From positions 1 to 36,034 of the forward strand of contig LKMP01000009.1 of the NCBI GenBank assembly GCA_001563915.1: 36,034 nt of DNA. The letters run 5' to 3'. A program made the translations under genes and the position numbers. Of this stretch, positions 16,393 through 31,398 are shown in pieces; the stretch's first letter is position 1, and each line of letters starts with the position of its first letter. This DNA is from Nanohaloarchaea archaeon B1-Br10_U2g21. Lineage in GTDB: Archaea; Nanohalarchaeota; Nanosalinia; Nanosalinales; Nanosalinaceae. Under the pieces are notes generated by a model, which ran no database searches, had not been told where the DNA came from, and was given only the letters and a program-made list of their open reading frames with translations.

Positions 16393-18369
16393 CTATCGCA
16401 ACATTGATCCCGGAAAATCTATTACCTGAGTCTCATACTCTCCGCCCTCCCCTGCCGCATGAAACCCATATTTTTCCGAAAGCTCAATCAACTCTTCAAC
16501 ATTATCCTGATCCAGAACTCTACCTTCCCATTCTTTTTCAAGACCTCTAGCGGCAACATCAGTTATTTCGACTTCAAAACCCTTCCTGACAAGCCAGCGC
16601 ATATAATTAACAGGATTCTCGCTCCACAAAGGCGTAAAAACTTTGAGCCCTAAACTTTCAGCTACTTTCTCCACTCTATCACGCTGATATGTAGATGCCA
16701 AGGCCCCCGAAACAACACCTTCTACCTCATAATCCTCCACAGCTTTTTCTAAACCCTTCTCTAAATCATTAAGCTCTTCCTCTTTTTCCCCCATTGTTTC
16801 CTGAAAGATTAACGGCACCCTCATTTTCGAGGCCTGTTCTTCAATTATTTTTTCCTCTTTTTTCGAGTCAAACATATAACTATCTCTATTCTCGGATCTC
16901 AAAGATAACAGACACGAAATTTCATTTTTCCGCCTCATTATTCTATATATGGCGGCGTTAGAGTCCTTTCCTCCCGATGTAAGAGCTACAAGCCTATTAT
17001 TTGATTTTTGGACGTCTGAATTTTGCCGCTTAGAACCTCCTTGATACTCTCCGTTTCGTAAAGAGTTAAGATATGCTTGTTTACTAACAAATTCATTTTC
17101 CTTAGCCAACTTGCTGATAGCCTTATCGAAGTTGCTACCGTATTGTGCGGCAACCTTCCCTCTCCAAGCTACGTCTTCAGGCACACCTAACTTTACGGCA
17201 GCCTTTCTCAAAACATATTTCCTGTAGCCCTCAGACTGTTTCTGTTCGCTTGGAATTGTCAATGCGTTTTCTACCAAGTCACAATCAAGAAACGGGACTC
17301 TCAGCTCATACCCATTGCGGAATCCAATAACATTATCTCTATAGAGATCTCTTTCGAATAAACCTCTTAATCCCGAAAGACATTCTTTGTTTAAATAATT
17401 CTGCTGACGGTGATACCCGGCATATAGTTGTTCTGATCCTAATCCTGACATCACGACCTTTTCATCCCCATTAAGAGCCATATGAAAAGGCAAAGCAACA
17501 CCTAATTTAACAGCACTTGTCGATGAAATCCAATTTGCAAGCTTAGGTAAAGCTTCTTCAACTTCTTCAAGAGCTACTTCTCGAATTTCTAAGTCTAAAT
17601 TCATTTCTTCAGCCGTTTTTTCAGCCCATTCCAAGTCACGAGGCTTACTAGTGTTACCATACTGTATTCCTGACGTATAGCACGTAAAGTCTTTTTCTAA
17701 CTCTTGTAGCGCTGCAGCAATTAACGTAGAATCAACACCGCCAGAAAACAAAAGACCTAATTCTGTGCTAGGTACTCTCTTTTCTACAGCTTTCAGAAAT
17801 AATTCTTTGATTCTTTCCGCATTTTCTTCTACTGAGGCGTCTTTCTCATTTATCTCGAAGAACTCTCTCTGCTCAAAACTAATTTCTTTTGTTTTTCTAT
17901 CATATCTGAGTATTTGTCTTGGATGGAGTTCACGTGCTTTAAGACCTGCTTTTTCCAGCGCTTGTTTTTCCGATGAAAATGAAAAAGTCTCTGTAGAGTA
18001 CCATATTGGATTAACTCCCAGTAGATCTCTTGCAAGTATTAATTCATCTTCATCACAGTATGCAAACGCGTAAATACCGTCCAGGCTCTCTAATGCATTA
18101 AGACCTTCAATTTCTAGTAACTGAAATAGTAGTTCTGCATCATTTTCAGCTGTTAAATCTCTCTCTTCTGAAAGCGTTTTCCAGTTGTATATTTCGCAGT
18201 TTGCGACCAGCATCCCTTTTCCCTTTAACGGTTGCTCCACATCTCCAACTACCGAATGAAGTATATGACCCATACCTCTAGTTTCTTTCTTTTTTGTGCC
18301 TCTATGCTCGAGATGTCGGCCTATTTCCTCAGTTAGTTCAAGAGTTTCTGATCCATAAATGCCGCACAT
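16393..18369 (-). CDS. Fusion of asparagine-synthetase-like protein and diphthamide synthase Dph6
   Basis: 658 residues from the ATG at 18369. A TTG four codons earlier is rejected because the next residue after this Met is Cys2, the glutaminase nucleophile. Domains: class II glutaminase (about 1-165) with ANCEIYNW; asparagine-synthetase PP-loop LLFSGGVDS (motif at 209-214) and the GYRKYVLRKAA region; a linker (about 435-458); then Dph6/DUF71 ATP pyrophosphatase with LTSGGKDS (465-470), GALASTYQRDRVE and the GEGGEYETQVID motif. Dph6 amidates diphthine on EF-2 using ammonia. The fused glutaminase could supply that ammonia. The Arg expected in the glutaminase GHRRL motif is not seen (GHILHS). 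A palindrome lies between TATA and start. Confidence 0.92.
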   Translation of the reverse strand: MCGIYGSETLELTEEIGRHLEHRGTKKKETRGMGHILHSVVGDVEQPLKGKGMLVANCEIYNWKTLSEERDLTAENDAELLFQLLEIEGLNALESLDGIYAFAYCDEDELILARDLLGVNPIWYSTETFSFSSEKQALEKAGLKARELHPRQILRYDRKTKEISFEQREFFEINEKDASVEENAERIKELFLKAVEKRVPSTELGLLFSGGVDSTLIAAALQELEKDFTCYTSGIQYGNTSKPRDLEWAEKTAEEMNLDLEIREVALEEVEEALPKLANWISSTSAVKLGVALPFHMALNGDEKVVMSGLGSEQLYAGYHRQQNYLNKECLSGLRGLFERDLYRDNVIGFRNGYELRVPFLDCDLVENALTIPSEQKQSEGYRKYVLRKAAVKLGVPEDVAWRGKVAAQYGSNFDKAISKLAKENEFVSKQAYLNSLRNGEYQGGSKRQNSDVQKSNNRLVALTSGGKDSNAAIYRIMRRKNEISCLLSLRSENRDSYMFDSKKEEKIIEEQASKMRVPLIFQETMGEKEEELNDLEKGLEKAVEDYEVEGVVSGALASTYQRDRVEKVAESLGLKVFTPLWSENPVNYMRWLVRKGFEVEITDVAARGLEKEWEGRVLDQDNVEELIELSEKYGFHAAGEGGEYETQVIDFPGSMLR

Positions 18370-18374
18370 GCTTC

Positions 18375-18389
18375 TTCTCAAGTTGAGAA
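18375..18389. promoter_or_regulatory. Perfect palindrome in the AsnB-Dph6 promoter
   Basis: TTCTCAA-G-TTGAGAA (plus strand) has perfect 7-bp arms around one base. On the minus strand it lies between a TATA-like acatataat (about 18391-18399) and the ATG at 18369. That is the usual place for an archaeal repressor site, blocking polymerase recruitment or initiation. The regulator is unknown. The box is about 26 bases from the ATG, so the gene is probably leaderless. Confidence 0.6.
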
Positions 18390-20325: not shown

Positions 20326-21783
20326 TTGGATAAAAAATTCTTGGAGCAGCTGATAGAACAAAACTTGGTAAAACACCAGACCGAATCATACAATAGATTC
20401 ATAGAAGACCGAATACAAGCTATTCTTAACGAAGTAGGCAGTATTGAACCAGAACTTCCTGACGGAGAAGATCTAGTAATCAAAATCGTTGACATGGATA
20501 TAAAGAGGCCTAAAATTCACGAAGCAGACGGCTCAGTAAGAAAAATTACTCCAAGAGAAGCTCGAATGCGAGATTTAACCTATTCTTCTGAAATCAAAGT
20601 TGAAATGGCACCTATTTTCGAGGGAGTAAAGCAAGAACCTGAAGAAGTAACCATTGGAGAGATTCCAGTCATGGTGGGTAGCGATTTATGCTGGAGTTCT
20701 GACTGGGATGAAGAAGAAAAAATTGAAAACGGAGAAGATCCAAAAGATCCTGGAGGATATTTCCTAATAAACGGTTCTGAAAAAACTATTATCTCAATGG
20801 AGGAGCTTACAAACAACAAGCCAGTTTTCCTCCAAGATGGCGACGAACAGACGTGTAGAGTTAACTCAGAGAACTCTGGCTATGTACAGCGACACGTACT
20901 TACAAGAGATAAAGATATAGTTACCATATCATTCGCAAATGTGAAAAAGACTCCTGCTGTCGCACTTCTAAAAGCGCTAGGATATGAAACAGATAAAGAA
21001 ATAGTCGAAATAATCGGCGAAGAATATGCATCAGATATTTACTTGAACATCTACGAAGTTGATGCAGCAAATCAGCAAGAGGCATTCGAATATATTGCTA
21101 ACCGAGCCGGCGTAACTAACGACGTGGAAGAAAGAGTTTCTAGCATACTTGATGATTACCTTCTACCCCACCTCGGACAGGATCCTGAATTTAGAGAAGC
21201 CAAGGCAGAATTTCTCGCAAACATGATCAGAAATACTATTGCTCTTGGCAAAGGAGACATAACTGAAGACGATATCGACCACTATGCAAACAAAAGGCTC
21301 AATCTTGCCGGCGAACTACTAGAGATGCAGTTCAGATCTGTATTCCTCGGTAAATGGGGGCTAGTAGCAAGAATGAAGTATAACTTCCAAAAATCTGCTA
21401 AGCGAGGCCGGCTTCCAAGCCTACAATCTACAGTTGTCTCAGATACTTTGAGCAAACAGATAATGGGTGCTATGGCCACAGGTAACTGGGTCGGTGGACG
21501 AACAGGAGTCTGTCAGCAACTTGATAGAAACAATAGAATCAAAACATTATCGCACCAGAGAAACATTGTTTCTCCGCTAAGCAGCGATAGACAACATTTT
21601 GAGGCAAGAGACTTACACCCAACTCACTGGGGCAGAATTGATCCTATAAAAACACCGGAAGGTATGAACATTGGACTCAGGACACACTTAGCAATGAGCG
21701 CAGATGTATCAACAGGAATGACAGAAATGGAGAAGAACGCATTGAAAATGACATTAGAGCAAGTAGGAATTGAGGTGGAATAA
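20326..21783 (+). CDS. rpoB2: RNA polymerase subunit B'' (second-largest, N-terminal part)
   Basis: 485 residues. TTG start at 20326, chosen because GGTGA lies 5-10 bases upstream and overlaps the rpoH stop; no ATG is near. Conserved segments: TESYNRFIEDRI, LCWSSDWDEEE, GGYFLINGSEKTIISMEEL, and the C-terminal THWGRIDPIKTPEGMNIGLR. It forms the protrusion, lobe and fork of the DNA channel. Split B is common in methanogens and haloarchaea, in contrast to the fused B of Crenarchaeota and some DPANN. The next gene starts two bases after the stop. Confidence 0.97.
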   Translation: MDKKFLEQLIEQNLVKHQTESYNRFIEDRIQAILNEVGSIEPELPDGEDLVIKIVDMDIKRPKIHEADGSVRKITPREARMRDLTYSSEIKVEMAPIFEGVKQEPEEVTIGEIPVMVGSDLCWSSDWDEEEKIENGEDPKDPGGYFLINGSEKTIISMEELTNNKPVFLQDGDEQTCRVNSENSGYVQRHVLTRDKDIVTISFANVKKTPAVALLKALGYETDKEIVEIIGEEYASDIYLNIYEVDAANQQEAFEYIANRAGVTNDVEERVSSILDDYLLPHLGQDPEFREAKAEFLANMIRNTIALGKGDITEDDIDHYANKRLNLAGELLEMQFRSVFLGKWGLVARMKYNFQKSAKRGRLPSLQSTVVSDTLSKQIMGAMATGNWVGGRTGVCQQLDRNNRIKTLSHQRNIVSPLSSDRQHFEARDLHPTHWGRIDPIKTPEGMNIGLRTHLAMSADVSTGMTEMEKNALKMTLEQVGIEVE

Positions 21784-21785
21784 AA

Positions 21786-23576
21786 ATGACAGACGTATTT
21801 TTAGACGGAGAAATACTGGGAGAAATCGAAGAACCAGAACAAGTAAGACAAAAACTAATAGAACAGAGAAGAGAAGGACTGATTGATCAAGAAGTTAACG
21901 TCTACTATGCTGAAGACAAAGACGAAATCCGGATCAACACCGACTCAGGAAGAATTTTAAGACCTTTGATAGTAATAGAAGAAGGAGAAGCGTCAATAAC
22001 GGAAGAAGAAATAGAAGAACTAGGAGAAGACCTTGATTTAAAGGAACTAGAAGAAGAAGGGAAAATTGATTATCTAGATGCTGAAGAGGAAGAGAATGCC
22101 TACGTGGCTATGAACCGAGAAAACATAACTGAAGAACACACCCATCTAGAAATCGATCCAGAAATTATAAATGGAATTTCAGCATCTCTCGTAGTCTACC
22201 CCGAACATAATCGTGGAGACCGTGTAAACTTTGGAGCAAAAATGGTAGGGCAAGGTCTAGGCCTTCCAAGTACAGATTTCCACCAAAAATTCCCTACACG
22301 TTCAAACATACTAACTTATGGACAGGATCCAATCGTAACCACGAAAACTTACGATACCTTAGTAGGAAGACATCCTATCGGACAAAATATGGTAGTGGCG
22401 CTAGCGTCATTTGATGGATACAATATTGAAGATGCAGTAATTATGAACAAGGCCTCAATTGACAGAGGACTATCAAGAACGACTTACATGAGAACTTATC
22501 AAACAGAAGCTCAGCGTTTCTGGGGAGGACAGAAAGATGAGATTGGAATCCCTGATAAAGATGTCAGAGGGTACAGAAGAGAAGAAGTGTACGCTCACCT
22601 TGATGAAGATGGTATTGTTAACCCTGAAACGAAGGTAGATTCTGATGATGTGCTTATTGGTAAGACTTCTCCTCCAAAATTCCTTGGTAGCGATGCAGGC
22701 GAAGTACAAATGGGATTGGCTGACAGAAGAGAGACTTCTCTAACTGTCAGACATGGAGAAAGAGGAAAAGTCGATAAGGTGATGATTTCAGAGACAGGAG
22801 ATGGCGATAAACTTCTCAAAATTAAGATGAGAGAGTATCGTATTCCTGAGCTTGGAGACAAGTTTGCAACAAGGCATGGACAAAAGGGAGTGATTGGAAT
22901 GATTACTCCAGAAGAGAACATGCCATTTACTAGGCAGGGAATTACACCAGATATTATCCTTTCGACTCACGCTGTACCAAGCCGTATGACAGTGTCACAG
23001 ATAATTGAACTTATGGCGGGTAAAGCCGGAGCAATGAGAGGAGAACCTGTAGACGGGACCGCATACCATAATGAATCTAAAGAAGAAATCAAAGAACAGC
23101 TAGAGGAACTAGGATTCAACTCTACAGGAAAAGAAAAGATGTACAATGGAGTAACAGGAGAAGAAATGGAAGCAGAGATCATGATAGGCCCAGCATACTA
23201 CTTGAAGCTAAGCCACATGGTTGCTGATAAAGTCCACGCTCGTGGACGAGGACCAGTAACTCTTCTAACAAAACAACCGACAGAAGGCCGTTCACAGGAA
23301 GGAGGACTAAGACTAGGAGAGATGGAAAAGGATGTCTTCGTAGGACACGGCGCATCACTATTACTCAAGGAAAGATTCGGAGCAGACTCTACAGAAATTG
23401 AAGTATGTGCCGAGTGTGGAGAGATAGGTGTATATGACAGAAAAGAGAACAAGAAATACTGTCCAAATTGTGATTCTGAGAATGTAGAAGAATCAGAGGT
23501 TCCTCACGCATTCCTATTACTGATGAATGAGCTGAAATCCATGATGATGGATACGAAGGTTGAGTTAGAGGAGTAG
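21786..23576 (+). CDS. rpoB1: RNA polymerase subunit B' (second-largest, C-terminal part)
   Basis: 596 residues. Motifs: NRGDRVNFGAKMVGQGLG, then ASFDGYNIEDAVIMNK, ELGDKFATRHGQKGVIG and the C-terminal zinc ribbon CAECG...YCPNCDSEN followed by PHAFLLLMNELKSM (anchor and clamp). The ATG (21786) follows GAGGTGGAA. The combined B''+B' length of 1081 residues is slightly short of typical archaeal B subunits. Confidence 0.97.
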   Translation: MTDVFLDGEILGEIEEPEQVRQKLIEQRREGLIDQEVNVYYAEDKDEIRINTDSGRILRPLIVIEEGEASITEEEIEELGEDLDLKELEEEGKIDYLDAEEEENAYVAMNRENITEEHTHLEIDPEIINGISASLVVYPEHNRGDRVNFGAKMVGQGLGLPSTDFHQKFPTRSNILTYGQDPIVTTKTYDTLVGRHPIGQNMVVALASFDGYNIEDAVIMNKASIDRGLSRTTYMRTYQTEAQRFWGGQKDEIGIPDKDVRGYRREEVYAHLDEDGIVNPETKVDSDDVLIGKTSPPKFLGSDAGEVQMGLADRRETSLTVRHGERGKVDKVMISETGDGDKLLKIKMREYRIPELGDKFATRHGQKGVIGMITPEENMPFTRQGITPDIILSTHAVPSRMTVSQIIELMAGKAGAMRGEPVDGTAYHNESKEEIKEQLEELGFNSTGKEKMYNGVTGEEMEAEIMIGPAYYLKLSHMVADKVHARGRGPVTLLTKQPTEGRSQEGGLRLGEMEKDVFVGHGASLLLKERFGADSTEIEVCAECGEIGVYDRKENKKYCPNCDSENVEESEVPHAFLLLMNELKSMMMDTKVELEE

Positions 23577-23587
23577 AGGTGTCTAAA

Positions 23588-26065
23588 ATGAGCAAGAAAA
23601 TTAACAAGATAGAATTTGGAATCGTAAGTACAGAAAAACTAGATAACATGGCCGTGAAAGAAATTGACAAGGCCGAAGTATACGATGCAGACGGATACCC
23701 AGTAGAAAACGGAGTAATGGACCCTGCATTAGGAGTAATCGACCCAGGAATGACCTGCCAGACATGCGGAGGCCGGATCAGAGAATGTAAAGGACACTTC
23801 GGAATGATTACGCTTTCAAGACCTGTAGTTCACGTATTATACGCCAAAAAAATCAGAAACCTGTTAAGATTCACAAATATTAATGAAAACGGCGAGTGCA
23901 CACTGCTCCTGAAAGATGAAGACAAAGCCCTTAGAAAGTCAAACATGATGAAGGAAGACCCTGAAACAGGGGAAGAAATATCAGATGTTAAACTAAACAA
24001 GCCCTACACTTTTGTAGAAAATGGGGAAGAAATCAAGCCAGAAGAAATCAAAGAAAGGTTTGAACAGATTCCTGATGAAATTGCCGCTAAACTAGGAGTA
24101 GAAGGATGTAGACCTGAAGATCTTGTACTTGAAAAAATACCTGTTCCTCCTGTAACAATCAGACCTTCAATAACTTTAGAGACTGGAGAAAGGAGTGAAG
24201 ACGATATAACTCACAAGTTAGTAGATGTAATAAGAATCAACAAGAGACTTCAGAATAACATTGAGATAGAAGCTCCTGAATTCATTATTGATGACTTACA
24301 TGAACTACTACAGTACCACGTATCGACATTATTCTACAATGATATGAACAGTGTGCCTCCAGCACGACACAGGTCTGGAAGATCGCTGAAATCTTTAATA
24401 GAACGAGTCCAAGGTAAACAAGGACGTTTCCGTGAAAATTTAATTGGTAAACGTGTTAACTTCTCTGCTCGTACCGTAATCAGTCCTGATCCAAATATTG
24501 GGATTAACGAAGTCGGGGTACCTAAACTTGTAGCCAAAAAACTGACAATCCCGGAAAAAGTAACCGAGAGAAACTACGACAGACTAATGGAGCATGTAGA
24601 AAATGGGCCAGACAATCATCCTGGTGCTAACTACGTTTTCCAACCAAACGGAAGCAGAAGAAGGATAACTGAAGAAAACCAAGAAGAACTTAAAGAAGTA
24701 ATAGAACCCGGAGAAGGATGGATAGTTGAGAGACAAATACAGGATGACGACACAGTCTTATTCAACCGGCAGCCTTCCCTGCACAGAATGTCTATAATGG
24801 CACACAAAGTCAAAGTACTGCCATACAGAACATTCAGGCTCAACCTTAACGTCTGCGCACCTTACAACGCAGACTTCGACGGCGATGAGATGAACTTACA
24901 CGTACCTCAAAGCGAAGAAGCACGAGCAGAAGCAGAAGAATTAATGAAAGTACAAGAACATGTCAAATCTCCAAAGATGGGAGGCCCGATCATTGGAATG
25001 CTTCAAGATTATGTATCAGGACTATACCTCTTGACACAAGAAGATAGAGAATTAGACAGAGAAAAAGCATTCAATCTCCTAGCAGAAGCAGGAGAACACT
25101 TCTCAGATCTGCCTGAAGGAGACACCGTATCAGGACGAGAACTAGTATCATTATTCATACCTGACGACATCTCTTTGACAATTAATGAAGGCGAAGATCA
25201 CGAAGTAGTAATAGAAGAAGGAAAACTAGTCAAAGGAGTACTTGATGAAGATGCACTTGGAGACTATGGAGGAGAGATCATCCAACAGCTCAGCATTGAA
25301 TACGGAAGCGATAAAGTCGCAGAGTTCCTAAACAGAGTATCAAGAGTAGGAGCAATCTTCCTAACAAAGAGAGGATTCAGCATAGGTCTAGACGATCTTG
25401 AAGTACCAGAGGAAGCGACTGAACAAATCAAAGAAGTAATTGAGGCCTCCGTAGAGAATACTGAAGAACTTCTCAAAGAATACGAAGAAGGAAAGATGGA
25501 GGCTATGACTGGTAAAACTCTTGAAGAATCACGAGAAATTCGTGTTACACGAGAGCTGAATGAAGCCTTCACAGAAATTGGAGAAATCATCAGCAATCAC
25601 TTCGATGAAGACTCCTCAGCTTACGTCATGGCAGACTCAGGCGCAAGAGGTTCAATGCAGAACGTTACAACAATGGCCGGAATGCTTGGACAGAACAGTG
25701 TACGAGACCAGAGAATTGAAAGAGGATACAAGAACCGTACATTAAGCCATTACAAACCTGGAGAAATGAGTCCAGAAGCAAAAGGATTCGTATCTTCAAG
25801 TATTCTTGAAGGACTAGAACCACAAGAGATGTTTTTCCACCAGATGGCTCAAAGAAAAGCGCTGATGGATAAGTCACTCAGGACTAAGACCTCTGGATAC
25901 ATGTATAGGCGTATTTCTAACTCTCTCCAAGACTTGAGAGTAGAGTATGATCAAACTGTGCGTAATGCGCAGGGAGAAATCATCCAGTTCCGAGCCGGTG
26001 AAGACGGAATTGACCCACAAAAATCCGATAGAGGAAGAATCACAACCACCATCTCAACAAAATAG
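23588..26065 (+). CDS. rpoA1: RNA polymerase subunit A' (largest, N-terminal part), one zinc site missing
   Basis: 825 residues from the ATG at 23588, 7-14 bases after GAGGTG; an in-frame GTG at 23579 lies inside that ribosome-binding site. The first clamp zinc site is C57-x2-C60-x6-C67-x2-H70. The catalytic Mg loop NADFDGDE is at 427-434. The second zinc site (two C-x2-C pairs soon after the LLR segment in most archaeal A') is absent: between about residues 100 and 185 only two isolated Cys occur, and the region is an acidic linker instead. The protein is shorter than the usual roughly 870-900 residues. It continues into A'' in the next gene, as in all archaea. Confidence 0.96.
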   Translation: MSKKINKIEFGIVSTEKLDNMAVKEIDKAEVYDADGYPVENGVMDPALGVIDPGMTCQTCGGRIRECKGHFGMITLSRPVVHVLYAKKIRNLLRFTNINENGECTLLLKDEDKALRKSNMMKEDPETGEEISDVKLNKPYTFVENGEEIKPEEIKERFEQIPDEIAAKLGVEGCRPEDLVLEKIPVPPVTIRPSITLETGERSEDDITHKLVDVIRINKRLQNNIEIEAPEFIIDDLHELLQYHVSTLFYNDMNSVPPARHRSGRSLKSLIERVQGKQGRFRENLIGKRVNFSARTVISPDPNIGINEVGVPKLVAKKLTIPEKVTERNYDRLMEHVENGPDNHPGANYVFQPNGSRRRITEENQEELKEVIEPGEGWIVERQIQDDDTVLFNRQPSLHRMSIMAHKVKVLPYRTFRLNLNVCAPYNADFDGDEMNLHVPQSEEARAEAEELMKVQEHVKSPKMGGPIIGMLQDYVSGLYLLTQEDRELDREKAFNLLAEAGEHFSDLPEGDTVSGRELVSLFIPDDISLTINEGEDHEVVIEEGKLVKGVLDEDALGDYGGEIIQQLSIEYGSDKVAEFLNRVSRVGAIFLTKRGFSIGLDDLEVPEEATEQIKEVIEASVENTEELLKEYEEGKMEAMTGKTLEESREIRVTRELNEAFTEIGEIISNHFDEDSSAYVMADSGARGSMQNVTTMAGMLGQNSVRDQRIERGYKNRTLSHYKPGEMSPEAKGFVSSSILEGLEPQEMFFHQMAQRKALMDKSLRTKTSGYMYRRISNSLQDLRVEYDQTVRNAQGEIIQFRAGEDGIDPQKSDRGRITTTISTK

Positions 26066-26076
26066 GTGACTAAAAA

Positions 26077-27183
26077 ATGAGCGAATTACACTGGACAGAT
26101 AGAGCAGAACAACTACCAGAGCCATACACAGGCCTAAACCTTGATACAGAAACACAAGAGTGGTTAAACGAACGTTACAAAAAGATGCAGTACGAGCCAG
26201 GAGAAGCTATCGGTATTGTTGCAGCACAATCAATAGCAGAACCTGCAACCCAGCTTACGATGGAAACGTACCACCAGGCAGGAGGAGCACAAGTATCTCT
26301 TACTGCAGGATTACCTCGTCTAATCGAAATTGTAGACGCACGCCGAGAGCCAAAGACTCCGGCAATGAACGTCTACCTAAAAGAAGAATACAACTCTCGA
26401 GAAGAAGCTACAAAACTAGCCAGAAAGCTTAGAGAAGTCAAGTTCACAGATCTCGTCACAAAGGATACTATTGATATCATGCAGCTTGAAGTAGAGTACG
26501 AACTCAATTCTGCTCTATTAGAAGACTATGACATCGATATGGAAGATGTTAAATCTAGAGTAAAAGATTCTGTAAAGAAGTCTAAACTCAGTATAGATGA
26601 CAATAGCATAATATTAGAATCCTCCGAAGAAGACTATACCCTTCGAGACCTTAAAGACTTAAAAAACAAGGTTGAGGATGCAAGAATCAAAGGAATTAAG
26701 GGAATAGAGCAAGTTGTCATTAATGAAAACGATGGAGAGTGGGAACTTCAGACCGCAGGAACCGCACTTAGAAAGACACTGAAGATAGAAGAAGTAGATG
26801 AAAACAGAACAATCTCTAACCACTTATTCGAGGTTAAGAGAGTATTAGGAGTAGAAGCCTTAAGAAACAGAATTATCGTAGAGACAAATCAAACTCTAGG
26901 AGCACAAGGAATCAGTATAGACAATAGACACATTATGCTACTAGCTGACATGATGACTAAAACAGGAGGGCTCAAAGGAACAACACGTTATGGAATCGTA
27001 GGCGACAAGCACTCCATACTCGCCCGTTCAGTTTTCGAAGAAACCAAGAAACACCTAAGAGAAGGAACACTTGGCGGAGAAGAAGATGAACTTGAAGGAG
27101 TAGTAGAAAACATCATCACAGGTCAACCTGTACCTATAGGAACTGGTACCGTAGACCTGAAACCAAGCTTCGAAAAGGAGTAA
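26077..27183 (+). CDS. rpoA2: RNA polymerase subunit A'' (largest, C-terminal part)
   Basis: 368 residues. GEAIGIVAAQSIAEPATQLTMETYH covers the trigger-loop region, followed by PRLIEIVDARREPKTPAM. The C-terminal GTTRYGIVGDKHSILARSVFEETKKHL is diagnostic. Start ATG 26077, after the Shine-Dalgarno GGTGA that overlaps the A' stop. The L30e gene that often sits between A'' and nusA in other archaea is missing here; the 62-base gap instead holds a TATA box (ccatatataaaac). Confidence 0.97.
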   Translation: MSELHWTDRAEQLPEPYTGLNLDTETQEWLNERYKKMQYEPGEAIGIVAAQSIAEPATQLTMETYHQAGGAQVSLTAGLPRLIEIVDARREPKTPAMNVYLKEEYNSREEATKLARKLREVKFTDLVTKDTIDIMQLEVEYELNSALLEDYDIDMEDVKSRVKDSVKKSKLSIDDNSIILESSEEDYTLRDLKDLKNKVEDARIKGIKGIEQVVINENDGEWELQTAGTALRKTLKIEEVDENRTISNHLFEVKRVLGVEALRNRIIVETNQTLGAQGISIDNRHIMLLADMMTKTGGLKGTTRYGIVGDKHSILARSVFEETKKHLREGTLGGEEDELEGVVENIITGQPVPIGTGTVDLKPSFEKE

Positions 27184-29214: not shown

Positions 29215-31398
29215 ATGGCCAAAGAGCTTGACGCAATTAAAGAAGTGATTAACGACCCGGAGCATATCCGGAACATCGCTATCGCAGCACACATTGACCA
29301 CGGAAAAACAACACTTACAGACAATCTCCTTGCTCGTGCAGGTATGATATCCGAGAAACTTGCAGGAGACCAAAGATTCATGGACTTCGATGACCAAGAA
29401 GCAGAAAGAGGAATCACAATCTATTCTGCAAACGTATCGATGGTTCACGAACTTAATGGACAGGACTACCTGATTAACCTTATCGACACACCAGGGCACG
29501 TTGACTTCGGAGGAGACGTTACCCGGGCAATGCGTGCAGTTGATGGAGTAGTAGTACTTGTGGACGCAGTCGATGGAGTAATGCCTCAAACAGAGACCGT
29601 CATGAAACAAGCCTTAAACGAAGGAGTCAAGCCTGTACTTTTCATCAACAAAGTAGACCGACTAATAGAAGAAATGCAGTTAACACCTGAAGAAATGCAA
29701 GAAAGATTCATAGATATCATCAGAGAAGCAAACACTGCATTAAGAAAATACGCTGAAGAAGATTTAGCCGACGAATGGCAGATGAAAGTAGACAATGGAA
29801 CAGTTGCTTTCGGATCAGGTCTGAAGAACTGGGCAATCTCTGTACCATACATGGCAGAAACCGGAATAACTTTTGGAGATATAATTGACAAAGTAAACGA
29901 CGGCGACCATGAAGGTCTAAGAGAAGATGCACCAATTGAAGAAGTAGTTCTCGACATGGTAGTAGAACATTTAGTTAACCCTCAAGAAGCCGCACAGAGA
30001 AGAATTTCTAAGGTATGGCCTGGAGAAGTAGACAGCGACATAGGACAATCAATGATGAAACACACCCAGGATGGACCTCTTGTAGGAGTAGTCACAAACG
30101 TTGAAGATGATGAACATGCAGGAACAATTGCAACAGCAAGACTATTCTCTGGAACAGTAGAAGAAGGAGATCAATTATATGGTATTGGATCAAAGAAGAC
30201 TGAAAGAGCTCAACAAGTAGGAATTTATTCAGGACCTAGAAAGCTGACAGTCGATGAAGTACCCTGTGGAAACATTGCAGCACTAACCGGTCCAGACTTT
30301 ACAACCGGAGAAACTTTTATTCGAGAAGGCGAAGATGAGATTCAGCCATTCGAACAAATCGAACACGTATTCGAACCTGTTGTAACTAAATCTATTGAAC
30401 CAAAACGAACATCAGACCTACCAAAACTCATTGAAGCTCTACGTAAACGTGCAAAAGAAGATAACACAATCAAGATCCAGATTGACGAAGAAACAGGAGA
30501 GACACTAGTATCAGGACTCGGAGAACTACACATTGAAGCAAAAGTTGAAAGATTCCTAGATGAAAAAGGAATTGACATCAACGTATCCGAACCGATTGTA
30601 GTATTCAGAGAAGGAATCGAAAAAGTCTCCCCAGAAGTAACAGGTAAATCGCCTAACCGCCACAACCAGTTACAAATCACTGTGGAGCCTATTCCTGAAT
30701 CAGTAAGAAAGTTCTTGAAAGAAGAATACAAAGAACTCAAAATGCAGTCCAGCGATGATACAGAAGTCAGAGATGCGCTTGTAGAATCCGGGATGGATAA
30801 AGACGAAGCAGATAACATCATGGAAGTCTACGAAGAAAACATGTTTATCAATGCCTCAAGAGGTATCAAAAGCCTAAGAGAAATTCAAGAATACCTGATT
30901 GATGCATTCCAAGAATTCTGTGATGAAGATCCGCTGGCGAACGAGCCTGTAATAGGCCTAAAAGTTAAACTTCACGATGCAAAACTGCACGAAGACGCAA
31001 TCCACAGAGGACCAGCACAAATGATTCCTGCAACAAAGAATGCGCTGAAAAGAGGTTTCCTTCAAGCACAACCTCAGCTAATCGAGCCAAAACAAGAGCT
31101 CAGAATTGACACACCGAGTGAAACTATGGGAGAAGCAATGACCGAAGTTTCCAACCGTAGAGGCGATGTCATGGACATGGAAGAAGAAGGCGGAAGCAGT
31201 GTGATATTCTGTAAACTTCCTGTAGAGGAATTGTTTGGATTTGAAGCAGATCTAAAATCTGCAACAAACGGAAAAGGATTCTTCTCACTGATAGACATAG
31301 TCTTTGAACCTCTAATGATGGATCTACAAGACGAAAAGATTCTTGAAATCCGTGAAAGAAAAGGAATGAAGGAAGAACTCCCAACACTGGAAGAGTAA
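29215..31398 (+). CDS. fusA: Elongation factor 2 (EF-2)
   Basis: 727 residues, the normal archaeal length. GTPase motifs AHIDHGKTT (G1), DTPGHVDFGG (G3), NKVDR (G4). Domain IV loop LHEDAIHRGPAQMIPA has the diphthamide acceptor His597 (31003-31005). EF-2 translocates the ribosome. The enzyme that would complete its diphthamide (Dph6) is encoded at 16393-18369. The ATG is preceded by CGGTGA about 13 bases upstream. Promoter candidate: cctttttaaaac (29160-29171). Confidence 0.98.
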   Translation: MAKELDAIKEVINDPEHIRNIAIAAHIDHGKTTLTDNLLARAGMISEKLAGDQRFMDFDDQEAERGITIYSANVSMVHELNGQDYLINLIDTPGHVDFGGDVTRAMRAVDGVVVLVDAVDGVMPQTETVMKQALNEGVKPVLFINKVDRLIEEMQLTPEEMQERFIDIIREANTALRKYAEEDLADEWQMKVDNGTVAFGSGLKNWAISVPYMAETGITFGDIIDKVNDGDHEGLREDAPIEEVVLDMVVEHLVNPQEAAQRRISKVWPGEVDSDIGQSMMKHTQDGPLVGVVTNVEDDEHAGTIATARLFSGTVEEGDQLYGIGSKKTERAQQVGIYSGPRKLTVDEVPCGNIAALTGPDFTTGETFIREGEDEIQPFEQIEHVFEPVVTKSIEPKRTSDLPKLIEALRKRAKEDNTIKIQIDEETGETLVSGLGELHIEAKVERFLDEKGIDINVSEPIVVFREGIEKVSPEVTGKSPNRHNQLQITVEPIPESVRKFLKEEYKELKMQSSDDTEVRDALVESGMDKDEADNIMEVYEENMFINASRGIKSLREIQEYLIDAFQEFCDEDPLANEPVIGLKVKLHDAKLHEDAIHRGPAQMIPATKNALKRGFLQAQPQLIEPKQELRIDTPSETMGEAMTEVSNRRGDVMDMEEEGGSSVIFCKLPVEELFGFEADLKSATNGKGFFSLIDIVFEPLMMDLQDEKILEIRERKGMKEELPTLEE

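Follow-up and report, generated by a model that had tools for sequence, protein, structure and literature searches.

What an asparagine-synthetase (AsnB)-like PP-loop domain does when it is joined to Dph6, the diphthine--ammonia ligase, is the question raised by one gene in the window, the 36,034-nucleotide stretch of DNA analyzed here. AsnB-DUF71 fusions were described in 2012 by de Crecy-Lagard et al. in Methanohalophilus mahii, Methanosalsum zhilinae, and Ca. Nanosalinarum J07AB56; that paper proposes that the GAT-II domain provides glutamine-derived ammonia to both PP-loop domains for diphthamide, and there the reviewer L. Aravind asked which PP-loop takes the ammonia and what role the AsnB-like one has (PMC3541065). 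Both the architecture and the ammonia-supply idea were thus already published, and the same idea in the initial annotation is a rediscovery. A literature search found no paper answering what the AsnB-like PP-loop of the Dph6 fusion does. New here are the invariance of the AsnB-like catalytic residues without Glu364, the repeated loss of the glutaminase, and the presence of Dph2 in all carrier genomes tested.

Overall architecture of the fused protein

The fusion ORF occupies an uninterrupted minus-strand frame from an ATG at 18369 to a TAG ending at 16393 (Table 1). An in-frame TTG lies upstream at 18381 and is an unlikely start, because class II glutaminases need an N-terminal Met-Cys. Pfam and NCBIfam profiles match in the order GATase_7/GATase_6, Asn_synthase (E 4e-37), and Diphthami_syn_2/Dph6_archaeal (E 1e-55/1e-66), and both PP-loop motifs are located, bearing out the initial annotation of a three-part chain with a class II glutaminase, an SGGVDS PP-loop, and the SGGKDS PP-loop of Dph6. 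GAT-II, Asn_synthase, and DUF71 domains in one chain define the AsnB-Dph6 fusion family (PMC3541065), to which the protein belongs. Two genes joined by a frame error at 17010-17070, a concern raised earlier, are ruled out by single-frame fusions among same-family relatives: the linker is open there, and these relatives give full-length single-gene matches.

Table 1. Features of the fusion gene and of its presumed substrate in the window
Feature	Position	Strand	Evidence
Whole fusion gene, 658 aa + stop: class II glutaminase, AsnB-like PP-loop domain, Dph6	16393..18369	-	ORF list, Pfam, NCBIfam
Class II glutaminase (Ntn) domain, residues 1-165; catalytic Cys2, ATG TGC start	17875..18369	-	Profile match, alignment
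NCEIYN motif; Asn74 and Glu76 equivalents kept, Cys at the Gly75 position	18184..18201	-	Alignment
Asparagine-synthetase-like PP-loop domain, residues 178-440	17050..17838	-	Profile match, alignment
First PP-loop, SGGVDS	17728..17745	-	Sequence
SGLGSE, equivalent of ASNS SGEGSD; Leu at the Glu364 position, Glu at the Asp367 position	17431..17448	-	Alignment, PMC6748925
Lys405, equivalent of human ASNS Lys466/E. coli Lys449, invariant	17155..17157	-	Alignment
Linker, lowest model confidence (residues 445-453)	16999..17049	-	AlphaFold2, sequence
Dph6 (diphthine--ammonia ligase) domain, residues 458-655	16405..16998	-	Pfam, NCBIfam, residue check
Second PP-loop, SGGKDS, of Dph6	16960..16977	-	Sequence, residue check
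EF-2, presumed substrate, acceptor His597 in LHEDAIHRGPAQ	29215..31398	+	Residue check

An AlphaFold2 model of the fusion protein (35 alignment rows) has a mean pLDDT of 89.6 and a pTM of 0.86, and its confidence drops only in the linker; the pTM is high enough to suggest that the two parts are arranged in a defined way. By Foldseek, the front part resembles ASNS, AsnB, and beta-lactam synthetase, and the rear part PF0828 and PH1257.

Distribution of the fusion in archaea

All 12 good-quality genomes of the family retain the fusion. When 40 relatives were searched genome-wide, almost every genome of the same genus or family proved to have it, usually as a full-length match to a single gene (58-70% identity), and so did two further genomes of the order; in one same-family genome the copy is broken, and one same-genus genome (78% complete) gave no fusion match. 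The search for the same fusion or adjacency in other archaea that the initial annotation had proposed was fruitful among relatives, Woesearchaeota-like archaea, and Methanosarcinaceae: a scan of named genomes placed the fusion in Nanohaloarchaea, many Woesearchaeota-like and Nanoarchaeota MAGs, a few Diapherotrites, Methanolobus, Methanomethylovorans, and other Methanosarcinaceae. Counted from profile-search lists, about 44 of 393 archaeal genomes carry the fused gene. This spread across same-family relatives and other archaeal groups indicates that the fusion is real and old.

Within an otherwise unfused archaeal AsnB-like family, the fused and adjacent rows, plus a few unfused ones, form one group (SH-aLRT 95) in a quick tree with many weak forks. 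The AsnB-like gene and dph6 are separate neighbors in four genomes of family f30 (G132, G149, G166, and G233; L155-L158), with ~14-17 bp between the domain matches. The fused gene has no conserved neighborhood, no Pfam family recurring in more than 3 of 105 neighbors. In the window itself, two genes apiece encode the split RNA polymerase subunits B and A (20326-27183); they adjoin S12, S7, EF-2, and EF-1A, which are ordinary archaeal housekeeping surroundings.

The Dph6 half and the diphthamide pathway

The Dph6 half scores 224.4 bits against TIGR03679 (cut-off 197.3). All six PP-loop residues of PF0828 are identical in the window domain, as are the nine predicted EF-2-contact residues (S44, Y45, E78, Y103, Q104, A149, E183, E186, and E188). 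Passing every test made, it is a predicted diphthine--ammonia ligase, and the fusion is the sole Dph6 match in a genome that encodes Dph2 and Dph5 elsewhere. EF-2 with an intact acceptor His597, reported by the initial annotation, is present in the same window, the His lying within LHEDAIHRGPAQ.

Every one of the 50 genomes tested in which the genes are fused, adjacent, or separate but closely related has a PF01866 (Dph2) match. In a sister family belonging to the same order, five genomes (G022, G024, G025, G026, and G027) give no Dph2, Dph6, or fusion match, nor anything close to the AsnB-like half; this family has apparently lost diphthamide. Its EF-2 (L177-L181) retains the acceptor His (HEDxxHRGPAQ) despite the missing Dph2 and Dph6 matches. 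The link to diphthamide is confined to the fused branch, because one genome (G048, 92% complete) has an unfused AsnB-like gene without a Dph2 match.

In many fusion genomes Dph2 is split, its profile being matched by a pair of ORFs that divide near position 60 and sometimes lie on different contigs (G283, C11:27505 and C3:28674; G064, C17 and C13; G269, C147 and C131; G368, C9:38383 and C9:50089; G309, C2:97061 and 97288). An order-mate (G021) encodes an unfused Dph6 (C11:165778-166419) ~1.7 kb upstream of EF-2 (C11:168117-170276) on the same strand.

Active site of the AsnB-like domain

All 110 fused sequences have the Ser and Asp of the PP-loop and the equivalent of Lys466, and 106 keep that of Arg403. 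The Glu364 equivalent (E. coli Glu348) occurs in none, the position being occupied by Leu (73), Ser (30), or other residues (7), and the Asp367 equivalent is Glu in 64 of 110. Human ASNS variants E364A, E364Q, and D367A are inactive (PMC6748925). The protein scores 213.8 bits against the TIGR01536 asparagine synthase equivalog (cut-off 267.1), and the missing Glu and the score below the cut-off together make asparagine synthesis unlikely; the residue pattern points to a domain that is probably not an asparagine synthetase and is likely to perform ATP chemistry. Mean identity within the window's family is 72% for the AsnB-like domain, 71% for Dph6, and 61% for the glutaminase.

The Glu364 equivalent is also absent from all 34 unfused archaeal relatives, and five unfused genes (L145, L147, L160, L165, and L168; loci assigned from gene sizes and positions) lie within ~1.2 kb of homoserine dehydrogenase, which suggests a role for these five in aspartate-family amino acids. 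Some members lacking the Glu might therefore still make asparagine, using a different residue at this position. In beta-lactam synthetase, a paralogue with another substrate, this position is Tyr.

ASNSD1, a eukaryotic AsnB-like protein without an assigned role, might be a distant relative of the AsnB-like partner. Human ASNSD1 (an approximate sequence) matches two profiles, with a QFGS motif like QYGS, and was rejected as a close relative, E. coli AsnB outscoring it on both; a literature search found no paper joining ASNSD1 and diphthamide, and no listed paper on yeast YML096W concerns diphthamide, judging by titles and abstracts.

The glutaminase is altered throughout the family and repeatedly lost

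The window glutaminase contains the class II catalytic set (Cys2, Asn57, Glu59, and Asp77), with Leu37 at the glutamine-binding Arg48/49 position and Cys58 at that of the oxyanion Gly75. The missing Arg and the Gly-to-Cys change (ANCEIYNW) were correctly noted by the initial annotation and are traits of the fused family as a whole. Among 110 distinct fused sequences (human ASNS numbering), the catalytic Cys, Asn74, and Glu76 are each found in 105 and Asp96 in 106; the Arg48 equivalent is Leu in 105 and the Gly75 equivalent is Cys in 103. Unfused AsnB-like relatives mostly have Gly at position 75 and partly Arg at position 48. Because Arg48 and Gly75 serve glutamine recognition and thioester stabilization in human ASNS (PMC6748925), the glutamine pocket is altered in the entire fused family. 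The Gly-to-Cys change is no proof of inactivity, since Cys would still offer a backbone NH, and from its residues the window glutaminase is probably active, releasing ammonia from glutamine.

Of 40 sampled fused or adjacent rows, 8 have a glutaminase that is dead or absent, corresponding to at least six changes on the AsnB-like domain tree, a rough rate because the fused sequences were collected by likeness to the window protein. All eight rows keep the PP-loop Ser and Asp and the catalytic Lys. In a further family of the order (f3), two genomes encode a fused protein that starts MGG or MSG (L021 and L023). Among f30 genomes, probably Methanosarcinaceae by their tree position with Methanolobus, three have an unfused AsnB-like gene adjoining dph6, with a start of MG or MS and a degenerate pocket (L156-L158), and another has an N-terminal domain without glutaminase motifs (L144). 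In two small-genome archaea (L152 and L153), the AsnB-like domain and Dph6 are present and no glutaminase was found. L151 is not a loss case, its glutaminase sitting in an overlapping ORF. Since repeated loss leaves the AsnB-like domain and Dph6 in place, glutamine use appears dispensable and these two form the constant pair. The loss lineages constitute a natural experiment, in which Dph6 seems to have its lasting partner in the AsnB-like ligase domain rather than in the glutaminase.

These losses bear directly on ammonia channeling as the sole function, the proposal of the 2012 paper (PMC3541065), by which ammonia from the glutaminase would pass through the AsnB-like domain, mainly a conduit, to Dph6. 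The ammonia requirement of Dph6, the near-universal catalytic residues, a domain order and Glu414 equivalent that fit an ASNS-like tunnel, and the overall confidence of the fold model are all consistent with such a route, but a dead, truncated, or missing glutaminase beside a retained AsnB-like domain and Dph6 argues against it, and an invariant PP-loop and Lys are unexpected for a mere conduit. Channeling to Dph6, as put forward in the initial annotation, may operate in the window protein, whose Cys is intact, but is insufficient for the family; as a complete explanation it is doubtful.

Asparagine synthesis and scaffolding as alternatives

A bifunctional enzyme, in which an authentic glutamine-dependent asparagine synthetase would form the first half and simply be attached to Dph6, is suggested by homology to AsnB (E 1e-59 to human ASNS in a profile search), by the retained PP-loop, Lys466, and Arg403 equivalents, by the homoserine dehydrogenase neighbors of the five unfused relatives, and by the rest of the genome, where a search found no AsnA and no canonical AsnB. 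This reading is improbable, given the complete absence of the Glu364 equivalent, the score of 214 against 267 bits, and the sister family that lacks a close match to the AsnB-like half along with Dph2 and Dph6. The separate asnB that the initial annotation asked about exists only as a second PF00733 gene, which is without the N-terminal Cys and the key Glu. That gene lies on the minus strand at G000:C19:27906-28886 (L001:1471-3069), with Dph5 ~7 kb away on the same contig. In cultivated nanohaloarchaea, asparagine synthase AsnB is reported as one of few amino-acid genes (PMC10266531); the gene meant there may be the Dph6 fusion, differently named.

A catalytically silent AsnB-like module that binds EF-2 or senses glutamine or ATP would suit the unusual glutaminase residues (Arg48 to Leu, Gly75 to Cys) of the whole fused family, and is very improbable in view of the PP-loop Ser/Asp and Lys that persist in every fused sequence and of the conservation of the AsnB-like domain, which equals that of Dph6 in the window's own family.

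A proposed second AMP-forming activity in the diphthamide step

The explanation we propose is that the AsnB-like domain has a second AMP-forming activity, other than asparagine synthesis, that would serve the same diphthamide step, with the glutaminase optional; judged from residue patterns, its prospects are evenly balanced. The Dph6 domain would adenylate diphthine on EF-2 and then amidate it, the glutaminase would release ammonia from glutamine as an optional source, and the AsnB-like PP-loop domain would act as a second AMP-forming enzyme on a carboxylate or as an ATP-dependent aid to Dph6. An active enzyme is favored over a scaffold because the PP-loop Ser/Asp and the Lys never vary in 110 sequences, although conservation of catalytic residues is no proof of turnover. 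The initial annotation had left the synthetase domain as either an active second enzyme or a scaffold; the first is now preferred, though not in the form of a standard asparagine synthetase.

A more specific version has two PP-loop ligases in one chain, with EF-2, diphthine, or a small-molecule partner as the target of a new ATP-dependent reaction of the AsnB-like one. This version is unlikely; if it were true, the last diphthamide step would be more complex than Dph6 alone. The proposed second activity bears on the source of the amide nitrogen of diphthamide and on whether Dph6 acts alone in these archaea.

Comparison with known systems

The window protein has the three-part order, organism group, and proposed ammonia link of the 2012 fusions from M. 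mahii, M. zhilinae, and J07AB56; the AsnB active site, the glutaminase losses, and the wide Woesearchaeota-like spread described here are absent from the accessible part of that account. Stand-alone archaeal Dph6 proteins (PF0828 and PH1257) share the PP-loop and predicted EF-2-contact residues, at 38-45% identity in the fold match, but lack a glutaminase or AsnB-like module. With AsnB and human ASNS, the protein shares the fold, the PP-loop, the Lys466, Arg403, and Glu414 equivalents, and the N-terminal Cys, and differs by Glu364 to Leu, Asp367 to Glu, Arg48 to Leu, and Gly75 to Cys.

Beta-lactam and carbapenam synthetases, which catalyze small-molecule cyclization, have an AsnB fold like that of the front part (TMt 0.76 to 1mbz) and are likewise substituted at the Glu364 position, but are without Dph6, and the window glutaminase, unlike theirs, retains its Cys. 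Yeast and plant Dph6 with RidA-like domains are likewise fusions of Dph6 to a proposed ammonia-supplying domain, although their RidA domains are unrelated and C-terminal.
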